Source of the DNA: Caulobacteraceae bacterium
Lineage (GTDB): Bacteria > Pseudomonadota > Alphaproteobacteria > Caulobacterales > Caulobacteraceae
Direction: 5' to 3'
DNA length: 12,488 nt
NCBI GenBank assembly: GCA_013815405.1
Contig: JACDGF010000021.1
Span: forward strand, 1-12,488
Positions within the stretch are counted from its first letter, which is position 1. Each line of letters opens with the position of its first letter. The notes under the pieces were generated by a model. That model saw nothing but the letters and a program-made list of their open reading frames with translations, was not told the origin of the DNA and did no database searches. This document shows positions 1,014-11,055 of the stretch, piece by piece. The position numbers and the translations under genes were made by a program.

Positions 1014-1790
1014 CCTCATGCCGTAGAGGCCGGGGGCGCGACCCGCGACCCAGGCCGCCGCGCGAACGGCGCCATTCGCGAAGAGCCGGCGATCGCGGGC
1101 CGAGTGGGAAAGGGTGAGGATCTCGTCCTCGGCCGCGAAGACCACGGCGTGCTCGCCGACGATGCCCCCGCCGCGCAGGACGCTGAAGCCGATCGCGCCC
1201 TCCCGCCGCGCGCCCCTCACACCCTCGCGGGCCGGCGCGGTAATCTCGGCCAAGGCTTCGCCACGTCCCCTCGCCGCCGCCTTGGCCAGCAGCAGGGCGG
1301 TGCCCGACGGGGCGTCCAGCTTGCCCCGATGATGGGCCTCGGCGACCTCGATGTCCCAGAGTTCCGGGCCAAGGCGGGCGGCCGCCTGTTCCACCAGGGT
1401 CGCCAGAAGGGTGACTCCGACCGAGAAGTTGTTCGATTTGACGATGGCGATCCTCTTCGCCGCAACGTCGACCGCCGCATCCTGCGCCGCCGAAAAGCCG
1501 GTCGACCCGATGACCAGGGCCGGCCCACCGCGCGCGGCCGCCCGAGCGGCGAGATCCGCCGACGACGCGGCGGAGGAAAAATCGATGATCACGTCGCAGG
1601 CGTCGAGCGCTTCTTCGACCGTGTCGGGGGCTTTGCCCACCGCGTCCGGCCGACCGAAGAGGGTCCCGATCGCCAGGCCCTCCCGCGCCTCGATCACGCG
1701 GGCGACCGCGCGTCCCATGCGCCCCGGGGCCCCGGCCACTCCGATCGTCAACCCAGGGCCCACGCCCGCTCCCGTTCCCGCCTGAGCCAA
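996..1790 (-). CDS. dapB: 4-hydroxy-tetrahydrodipicolinate reductase
   Basis: DapB reduces 4-hydroxy-tetrahydrodipicolinate with NAD(P)H in the diaminopimelate/lysine pathway, feeding peptidoglycan and lysine synthesis in the cytosol. The sequence shows the Rossmann motif GAPGRMG (about residues 20-26), IIDFS, GSTG (95-98), NFSVGV, and the family signature HHRGKLDAPSGTA (from 153) with the catalytic His and Lys. The C-terminal part has RGGGIVGEH and a final VLGL. The length of 264 aa is usual for the family. The longest form starts at TTG 1790. A GTG at 1763 is preceded by GGGAG five bases upstream and would remove nine poorly conserved residues (255 aa), so the true start may be 1763. It is divergent from gst (81 bases between starts) and convergent with dut. 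Confidence 0.95.
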   Translation of the reverse strand: MAQAGTGAGVGPGLTIGVAGAPGRMGRAVARVIEAREGLAIGTLFGRPDAVGKAPDTVEEALDACDVIIDFSSAASSADLAARAAARGGPALVIGSTGFSAAQDAAVDVAAKRIAIVKSNNFSVGVTLLATLVEQAAARLGPELWDIEVAEAHHRGKLDAPSGTALLLAKAAARGRGEALAEITAPAREGVRGARREGAIGFSVLRGGGIVGEHAVVFAAEDEILTLSHSARDRRLFANGAVRAAAWVAGRAPGLYGMRDVLGL

Positions 1791-3523: not shown

Positions 3524-3695
3524 TTAGCGGTTACCAAATTTTACTGCATCTCCAATCGTCTTAAATTCATGTGTCGTCCATTCTTGGCCTTTCGGACCGA
3601 CAATGCAGACATTTAACCTCCCCTGCATCATCAATTCCTGAGCAAGCGCGTTCGCATTTTGGGCGTTCTTCGATGTCAGCAGGACGAGCCTTCAT
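3524..3695 (-). pseudogene. Small hypothetical gene, apparently frameshifted right after its start codon
   Basis: On the minus strand, bases 3691 down to 3527 encode 55 natural-looking residues: RLVLLTSKNAQNANALAQEL, then MMQGRLNVCIVGPKGQEW and TTHEFKTIGDAVKFGNR, ending at TAA 3524-3526. The frame has no start codon of its own. Just upstream are GAGG (3703-3706) and, seven bases on, ATG (3695-3693), but one extra A (3691/3692) puts that ATG out of frame. Without that base the product would be a 56-residue protein beginning MRLVLLTSKN. By hand count the third codon position is G or C in about 30 of 55 codons here, against about 17 of 42 in the competing frame that the ATG actually reads, which favours this frame as the original. 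The function is unknown; the second half looks like a beta-hairpin followed by a helix. Confidence 0.4.

Positions 3696-6341: not shown

Positions 6342-6343
<2 letters not shown>
6321..6343 (+). terminator. Rho-independent terminator for maeB
   Basis: AAGGCG (6321-6326) pairs perfectly with CGCCTT (6332-6337) around GCGAG, followed by TCTTTT. An alternative GGCGC/GCGCC pairing (6316-6320 with 6331-6335) overlaps it. The T-run points to termination of plus-strand transcription from maeB. It ends at the hslU stop codon, so it also protects hslU from convergent reading. Confidence 0.7.
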
Positions 6344-7645
<1,302 letters not shown>

Positions 7646-7649
<4 letters not shown>

Positions 7650-8212
7650 GGGCCGCGTTGCGCCCCCACCGTCTCCAGCACCAGCTCGCGGTTGGTGTAC
7701 ACGCAGATGTCGGCGGCGATCCCCATCGCCTTGCGGGCGATGGCCTCGGCGGTGAAATCGAGATCGACGAGGGCGCGGGCGGCAGCCAGGGCGTACTGGC
7801 CCCCCGAACCGATGGCGGCCACCCCGTGCTCGGGCTCCAGCACGTCGCCGGCCCCGGAGATGACGAAGATGGCGCAGGCGTCGGCGGCGATCATCATCGC
7901 CTCGAGCCGGCGCAGATAGCGGTCGGAGCGCCAGTCCTTGGCCAGGTCGACGCACGCCCGGGCCAGCTGGCCGGGATACTACTCCAGCTTGGCTTCCAGG
8001 CGCTCGATCAGGGTGAAGGCGTCGGCGGTGGCCCCGGCGAAGCCCGCGGCCACGAGGCCGCCGGGCAGCTTGCGGACTTTGCGGGCGTTGCCCTTGACGA
8101 TGGTCTGGCCCATGGAGACCTGGCCGTCGCCGGCGACCACCGTCGATCCGGCCTTGCGCACGGCGAGGATGGTGGTGCCATGCCAATCTGGGACGGGGCC
8201 AGGGCTCGCCAT
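7646..8212 (-). pseudogene. hslV: HslV peptidase subunit with an in-frame amber stop at codon 78
   Basis: HslV is the threonine peptidase of the HslUV (ClpYQ) complex. Translation from ATG 8212 gives [12 protein letters not shown], then the catalytic Thr at residue 13 (TTILAVRK, exposed after propeptide removal), [20 protein letters not shown] and [12 protein letters not shown]. Codon 78 (7981-7979) is TAG. The frame then continues undisturbed: [47 protein letters not shown] and [12 protein letters not shown] to TGA 7646-7648. With the stop read through, the protein is 188 residues, normal for HslV. HslV homologues, as I recall them, have KLEQYPGQL here, so CAG has become TAG by one transition (plus strand G to A at 7981). 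If real, only a 77-residue fragment is made. The downstream part lacks the catalytic Thr. Confidence 0.9.
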
Positions 8213-9078: not shown

Positions 9079-11055
9079 ATGGATCATTTCATCGTGGGCG
9101 GCCTGATGGCTTTCGCCTGTCTGGCCGCGGGCGCGGCGCGGGCGGCGGGCCCGCCGATCGAGGACTACGGCAAGCTGCCGGCCGTCGAGCAGATGAGCTT
9201 GTCGCCCTCGGGCGAGAAGCTGGCCTGGCTCGCCGTGACCGGCGACGGTCGCCAGCTGGTGATCGCCAAGGCCGGCGGCGAGGTGCTGTTCACCATCCGG
9301 ACGGGGGCGCTTCGGCCCCGGCGGGTCGCGTGGCTGGGCGACGGCCATGTGCTGATCGAGGCCAGCAAGACCCTCGCCATCGATCCCAACGTTTCCCACA
9401 GCACCCAGCGGGTGGAGGCCACCCAGTCCACCATCGTCGACGCCGCCACCGGCGCGATGAAGACGGTGTTTTTCAACGATCGCCTGATCCACCACTCCAC
9501 ATTCGGCTATTTCGGCTACGGCCGGACGGGCGGCCAGGAATACGGCTACTTCGGCGGCGTCACCCTGGGCGGCGGCGGCACCGGGCTGACGGACTTCGAG
9601 GAAGGGACCGGCGCCTTCGATCACAACCACAGCGATCTCTACCGGGTGAACCTAGCGACCGGCGTCTCGGAAAAGGTCGGGGGCGGCAGCGAGCGCAAGG
9701 AGACTACCTGGGTAATGGGGCCGGACGGAGCCGTGGTGGGGCGCGGCCAATATGACATCAAGGGCGGCGAATGGATCCTCTGGTCGGGCCAGAAGCTGGG
9801 CGGACTCATCGCGCGTGAACGCGACCCGACCGGGGAAATCTCCGTCGTGGGCCTGGGCCGGACGCCCGCGACGGTGCTCGTCGAGCGCCCCGGTGATGAC
9901 GGCGATTGGGCGCGGATCGAATATGGCCCCGGCGGCGCCAAGGCCCAGCCGTTCGGCGACACGCCGATGCGCGAGGAGCTCCGTGATTCGACGACCAACC
10001 TCTTGATCGGCGGGATCACCAATGAGGACGACCCGCGCACCATCCTGTTCGATCCGGCCCAGCAGGCTATCTTCGACAAGATCAGGCGGGCCTTTCCCGG
10101 CGAGCGGGTGGCCCTGATCTCCTCCTCCGCCGGCCTCCAGCGGATGGTGCTGCACACCGATGGGCCCGGGGATTCGGGAACCTATTTCCTGGTCGACGTG
10201 CCGACCAAGAAGATCTCGGCGATCGGCTGGGACTATCCGACCGTGCTGCCGCCACAGGTCGCGCCGACCAGGATGGTGACCTACAAGGCGGCCGACGGCC
10301 TGACCGTGCGCGGCATTCTCACCCTGCCGCCCGGCCGGGAGGCCAAGGGGTTGGCGGCGGTCGTCTTGCCCCACGGCGGGCCCCAGGGCCATGACACCTT
10401 GCATTTCGACTGGTGGGCCCAGGCCCTGGCATCGCGCGGCTATGCCGTCTTCCAGCCCAATTTCCGCGGTTCGGACGGGGAGGGCAAGGCGTTCCGCGAC
10501 GCGGGCTTCGGCCAATGGGGCCGCAAGATGCAGACCGACATCTCCGACGGCGTGGCCGATCTTGCGCGCCAGGGCGTGGTCGATCCGCAGCGCGTCTGCA
10601 TCGTCGGGGCCAGCTACGGCGGTTATGCGGCCCTCGCGGGAGTCACCCTGCAGCAGGGCCTGTATCGCTGCGCCGTGGCGGTCAGCGGGGTTTCGGATCT
10701 CAACGCCATGCTGGCCTGGGAAGCCGACCGGGGCGGCGAGAGCACCAGCACCATGCGCTACTGGCGCCGGTTCATGGGCACGACTTCAGACGGGGACGGC
10801 TCGCTGAAAGCCCTATCGCCAGCGAGGCTGGCGGCCAAGGCCGACGCCCCGGTCCTGCTCATCCACGGTCGTGACGACACCACCGTGGCGATCAGCCAGA
10901 GCCGTAACATGCGGGCCGCGCTAGCGGGCGCCGGCAAGGCGGTCGAGCTGATCGAACTGGCCGGCGAGGACCACTACCTCTCGACCCAAGCCACCCGCGT
11001 CCAGATGCTCGCCGCGGTTACCGCCTTCGTCGAGAAGAACAACCCGGCGAAGTAG
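9079..11055 (+). CDS. Secreted S9-family prolyl oligopeptidase/dipeptidyl aminopeptidase-like serine peptidase
   Basis: This 658-residue exported peptidase of the prolyl oligopeptidase clan probably trims peptides in the periplasm. Residues 1-23 form a signal peptide ending ARA-AG. A beta-propeller-like region follows (about 30-390), including a glycine- and aromatic-rich segment at 141-180 (TFGYFGYGRTGGQEYGYFGG). The alpha/beta-hydrolase domain (about 395-658) has HGGPQGHD (432-439), nucleophile Ser512 in GASYGGYAA, Asp600 in HGRDDTTV and His632 in GEDHYLS, so the triad is complete. The start is ATG 9079 with GGGGAGGGG just upstream. It stops at TAG 11053-11055, showing that amber is used as an ordinary stop in this genome. 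It may be co-transcribed with the moeB-like gene or use its own promoter. The exact substrate (dipeptidyl or acylaminoacyl) is not decidable. Confidence 0.93.
   Translation: MDHFIVGGLMAFACLAAGAARAAGPPIEDYGKLPAVEQMSLSPSGEKLAWLAVTGDGRQLVIAKAGGEVLFTIRTGALRPRRVAWLGDGHVLIEASKTLAIDPNVSHSTQRVEATQSTIVDAATGAMKTVFFNDRLIHHSTFGYFGYGRTGGQEYGYFGGVTLGGGGTGLTDFEEGTGAFDHNHSDLYRVNLATGVSEKVGGGSERKETTWVMGPDGAVVGRGQYDIKGGEWILWSGQKLGGLIARERDPTGEISVVGLGRTPATVLVERPGDDGDWARIEYGPGGAKAQPFGDTPMREELRDSTTNLLIGGITNEDDPRTILFDPAQQAIFDKIRRAFPGERVALISSSAGLQRMVLHTDGPGDSGTYFLVDVPTKKISAIGWDYPTVLPPQVAPTRMVTYKAADGLTVRGILTLPPGREAKGLAAVVLPHGGPQGHDTLHFDWWAQALASRGYAVFQPNFRGSDGEGKAFRDAGFGQWGRKMQTDISDGVADLARQGVVDPQRVCIVGASYGGYAALAGVTLQQGLYRCAVAVSGVSDLNAMLAWEADRGGESTSTMRYWRRFMGTTSDGDGSLKALSPARLAAKADAPVLLIHGRDDTTVAISQSRNMRAALAGAGKAVELIELAGEDHYLSTQATRVQMLAAVTAFVEKNNPAK

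Follow-up and report, generated by a model that had tools for sequence, protein, structure and literature searches.

An in-frame TAG in an otherwise intact hslV gene of a draft Caulobacteraceae genome

The hslVU locus and its interrupted peptidase gene

The window, i.e. the entire 12,488-nucleotide stretch of DNA that was analyzed, corresponds to contig C193 of a draft genome of the Caulobacteraceae and carries the genes hslV and hslU next to each other (Table 1). The hslV reading frame is open throughout except for a TAG at 7981..7979, confirming a sequence-only reading of this DNA that had described a single amber codon within an otherwise intact hslV. Whereas HslV is expected to be encoded by one uninterrupted frame of about 170-190 codons, the frame here is broken at codon 78, and a disabling mutation is present in the consensus sequence.

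Table 1. Coordinates of the hslVU features in the window.
Feature	Position	Strand	Description
hslV, interrupted	7646..8212	minus	ATG 8212 to TGA 7648..7646; 188 sense codons and the TAG within
In-frame TAG	7979..7981	minus	codon 78 from ATG 8212
N-terminal 77-residue fragment	7982..8212	minus	matches PF00227 profile positions 3-68 of 189
83-aa open frame after the TAG, from the first in-frame ATG	7646..7897	minus	matches PF00227 profile positions 115-188
hslU, intact, GTG start	6342..7649	minus	435 aa, ends DLSRFIL

Each half of hslV matches the Proteasome family on its own, and the joined frame, with an X in place of the stop, reaches 271.3 bits on NF003964 (cut-off 137) and 258.3 bits on TIGR03692 (curated cut-off 157.75). 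It is therefore not just an open frame that arose by chance. In an alignment to solved HslV chains, residue 13 pairs with residue 1 of those chains, placing a short leader before the predicted catalytic Thr (GTTIL) and the TAG at residue 66 when counted from this Thr. The 83-aa frame downstream of the stop lacks the catalytic N-terminus. In sequence, in its GTTIL N-terminus, and in its order and overlap with hslU, the gene resembles HslV (ClpQ), the peptidase of HslUV (ClpYQ) as captured by TIGR03692 and NF003964; it differs by the TAG at codon 78, for which 110 relative loci offer no counterpart.

The product of hslU scores 567.9 bits (cut-off 362.45), and the TGA of hslV overlaps the GTG of hslU as GTGA. 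Both an HslU intact up to its C-terminal tail and a preserved overlap between the two genes had been proposed from the letters of the window, and both hold. The accompanying claim that hslV and hslU are kept or lost as a pair is borne out by the relatives, in that 34 of 39 genomes score over the cut-offs for both genes, and the remaining five lack the one as well as the other. Two genomes of the family (G016 and G019; 97 and 98% complete) lack hits over the cut-offs for either gene, likely reflecting joint loss. In Caulobacter ginsengisoli (L077), the frame directly after hslV begins unlike hslU, in contrast to the genus members listed.

The source genome (G000) is a draft of 2,720,259 bases in 513 contigs and is 85.45% complete. 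We considered a mis-binned contig and rejected this idea, as the G+C content of the window (0.685) falls within the range of the genome's other unmasked stretches. The other genes checked in the window are intact. An intact second hslV copy was likewise rejected: the whole draft genome contains one proteasome-family match, namely that of the window.

Codon 78 and the conservation of HslV among relatives

By their HslV proteins, the closest named relatives are uncultured Caulobacteraceae, Phenylobacterium, Brevundimonas, and Caulobacter (best 80 of 503 loci). In an alignment of 110 relative loci, the codon corresponding to the TAG specifies Gln in 99 (76 CAG, 23 CAA), Arg in eight, and Ala, Met, or Lys in one each; a stop occurs in none of them. 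This agrees with the sequence-only reading, which had expected Gln here. Some contigs are contained twice in this set, having entered from two collections, and among the 100 distinct DNAs Gln occupies the position in 89. Judged by the presence of Gln, Arg, Ala, Met, and Lys in relatives, the position is tolerant of several residues. The closest full-length HslV, found among the best 120 of 7999 candidates, shares 91% identity, represents 11 member sequences, and carries Gln at this codon. A close record of the truncated allele was not seen: among the best 120 of 2217 matched proteins, none is more than 89% identical to the 77-aa product. Three of the matched proteins, P0121 (78 aa), P0123 (79 aa), and P0130 (78 aa), terminate at the codon 78 site or directly beside it, be it through a stop or through the end of a contig.

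Across 40 genomes (that of the window and 39 relatives), the stop in the window's hslV is the only one. Extending the survey to 390 genomes of the family, 306 of which have an HslV match, revealed one further stop among the matches listed. In this case (L282, G162:C292:3600-4230), a TAA interrupts the frame close to the C-terminus (ICV*TNG), at a position where the window's HslV has Tyr, and the genome concerned, G162, is a fragmented draft as well (370 contigs, 78% complete). Among 142 genomes drawn evenly from the class, of which 112 gave a match, no other hslV stop appeared in the matches listed.

Across columns that are conserved in 95% or more of the relatives, the window's HslV has no private change before the stop (0 of 40 columns) and a single one after it (1 of 51; T96S). 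The relatives themselves have on average 0.37 private changes before and 0.76 after the stop position, and 35 of 100 have at least one after it. Compared with 12 members of the genus, the window's hslV has a mean dN/dS of 0.209 in the part before the stop and 0.247 in the part after it; the corresponding values among 66 pairs of genus members are 0.123 and 0.193. These values come from non-independent pairs, some of them with large synonymous distances. HslV is, by this measure, under purifying selection in the genus. The ratio of the window's gene is somewhat raised in both parts and not specifically in the part after the stop, and we do not read it as decay. Relaxed selection or further decay, as would mark a nonsense pseudogene, was not found, and the gene appears to bear no clear sign of damage beyond its stop.

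Use of TAG and further in-frame stops

Lineages that recode or suppress UAG would likewise show in-frame TAG at sites occupied by Gln in relatives. In contrast to such lineages, TAG is here a regular terminator. Among 225 non-overlapping open reading frames of at least 300 codons (579,729 unmasked bases), 126 end in TGA, 74 in TAG, and 25 in TAA, so TAG is neither rare nor absent at gene ends; G005, a genome of the same genus, has a comparable distribution (146 frames in 349,718 bases; TGA 76, TAG 51, TAA 19). Within the window, the S9 peptidase gene ends in TAG (11053..11055), as noted before. Release factor 1 is present (478.4 bits, cut-off 423.25), and none of the 31 tRNAs found has a CTA anticodon, in a set that is incomplete (the genome being 85% complete) and has no Gln tRNA. 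These findings uphold the earlier argument against genome-wide amber reassignment. The proposed search for an amber suppressor tRNA came back empty for those 31, leaving that part of the proposal with the caveat of a partial set. The same search yields 42 tRNAs in G005. In the window's genome, tRNAs for Gln, Cys, Phe, and Ile are missing from the 31, probably owing to draft incompleteness.

The 58 domain matches examined, totalling 8619 codons, contain no in-frame stop; 31 are ABC and 27 short-chain dehydrogenase domains, and four of the dehydrogenase matches score below the cut-off. The base following the TAG of hslV is a T, a context that is efficient for termination. Recoding of TAG in this genome is unlikely, on a tRNA coverage that is incomplete, and nothing found in this analysis suggests that the TAG of hslV is read as an amino acid. 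As for precedents, a passage in one paper states that the bacterial stop codon reassignments known to its authors all concern UGA and remarks, with respect to yeasts, that in-frame stops in pseudogenes mimic recoding (PMC8629427).

A coding-potential scan over sampled parts of the genome placed the hslV stop 8th among 3174 stops flanked by long open stretches. Under a stricter filter, passed by 26 of 4649 stops, it was joint top, tied at 0.06 with a stop of L180. The sensitivity of the scan is ~13% with the strict filter and 42% without, and therefore the scans cannot show hslV to be the only case. Pfam checks covered 10 of the 64 (stricter scan) and 96 (other scan) stops, in addition to seven control stops and L242 again. 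None of the 10 further candidates in this genome's sample has a Pfam domain across the stop. In L242 (minus strand, G000:C368), a TAG at 1716..1714 splits a long, repeat-rich frame that has no Pfam match. A tblastn comparison with G005 frames, matching 18,742 bases of the genome, flagged seven stretches, and hslV alone has a stop in its best-scoring frame; the six others were discarded, as each matches better, and without a stop, on the opposite strand.

Two of the seven candidates checked in G005 have a Pfam domain spanning an in-frame TAG. One is the gene for cytochrome bd subunit I (L268, minus strand, 3654..3652; MSY*FGTNWS), in which PF01654 covers residues 150-469 and the stop falls at 219, a position at which we take Gln to be the usual residue. 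The other encodes a DUF2442 and helix-turn-helix protein (L273, minus strand, TAG 6624..6622), with the domain at 31-105 and the stop at 86, where the homologous frame L223 of the window's genome has Trp. Since G005 has these two TAGs within Pfam domains, one-base stops are peculiar neither to hslV nor to this genome. Among random single-base changes to this genome's codons, ~2.4% create a stop, with TAG accounting for 55% of these; the preponderance of TAG is therefore not strange.

Weighing a young null allele against its alternatives

The sequence-only reading had offered a recent loss, a readthrough or suppressed codon, and a base-call error as explanations of the stop. That list stands, but its members are not of equal likelihood, as suppression is disfavored by the use of TAG, by release factor 1, and by the tRNAs. 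We regard a single nonsense substitution truly present in the organism's DNA, fixed or segregating, and young enough that the rest of hslV is undecayed, as the best explanation, with our confidence in it evenly poised between belief and doubt. The stop sits in an otherwise conserved HslV frame with hardly a private change on either side, it affects the sole proteasome-family match in the genome, and single nonsense codons also occur elsewhere, in the hslV of G162 (TAA) and in the cytochrome bd and DUF2442 genes of G005 (TAG); each of these points supports a young allele. Young nonsense pseudogenes in bacteria likewise depart from a conserved frame by one disabling base, and hslV here is free of other decay, although a base error would give the same consensus picture. 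Indeed, the same facts fit a wrong base in a draft of this fragmentation and completeness, and it is quite plausible, if short of probable, that the TAG arose from an error in the consensus or assembly, or from a base of a minority strain that entered the consensus, and that the organism's own hslV is intact. The unbroken and undecayed remainder of the gene accords with this, as does the origin of both stop-bearing hslV genes among the matches listed, that of G162 included, from fragmented drafts; at the above rates of stop and TAG formation, an isolated TAG is what would be expected from a handful of wrong bases per genome. Against a young allele also speak the Gln in the 91%-identical full-length relative, the lack of a second record of the truncated form among the best 120 of 2217 matched proteins, and the purifying selection on HslV in the genus. 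Error, on the other hand, is not needed to explain a single clean substitution, and the other genes checked around it are intact.

That the TAG is read through or suppressed, by a UAG-reading tRNA or through leaky termination, with full-length HslV still being made, appears improbable. The absence of decay after the stop, the range of residues accepted at codon 78, the TAG in the cytochrome bd gene of the same genus, and a tRNA set that is partial next to that of G005 and includes none for Gln would all be compatible with it. They are set against the many genes that end in TAG here and in G005, release factor 1 over its cut-off, the lack of a CTA anticodon, the stop-free domain matches, and the T after the stop, together with the restriction to UGA that the cited passage gives for known bacterial reassignments (PMC8629427). 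More speculative still, and in our view very improbable, is partial suppression of UAG as Gln among some members of this uncultured genus, which would make ambers tolerable in conserved genes such as hslV and the cytochrome bd gene of G005; TAG would then still end many genes alongside. We give least credence of all, close to none, to an old pseudogene or to an HslV that still works in truncated form or as two separate pieces. Both pieces do match the family separately, and an ATG lies 28 codons downstream of the stop; yet there is no decay after the stop as an old pseudogene would show, the C-terminal piece would begin 27 codons past the stop and skip a conserved stretch, and such a split is seen in none of the 110 relative loci.

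If the stop is a young null allele, the nonsense base would have arisen in hslV recently, with the remainder of the gene still undecayed. Translation would end after 77 residues, under half of the HslV fold, and would be predicted to yield no active peptidase. Because the hslU GTG overlaps the hslV stop, and 111 codons upstream of it would go untranslated, coupling would be lost and HslU would probably be made at a lower level. An HslU without its peptidase, as the earlier reading had envisaged, is possible, provided that the base is real and that HslU is still made. Loss of hslVU looks tolerable, given that five of 39 relatives are without both genes (two of those listed being 97 and 98% complete) and that a Caulobacter strain deleted for hslU has been built and used (PMC5760092).

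In a literature search for hslV pseudogenes or premature stops, one paper describes hslVU remnants in one Mannheimia lineage rather than a nonsense hslV (PMC2228313), and a search on premature stops in metagenome-assembled genomes returned no match. The substrates of HslUV in Caulobacter are described as uncharacterised in a further paper (PMC8119881). In a draft genome, a stop created by one base can mimic biology, and the base needs a read check before interpretation. Should it be real, the locus would offer a clean case of an HslU ATPase just after loss of its peptidase, in a group in which hslV and hslU are present or absent together in 39 of the 39 relatives checked.
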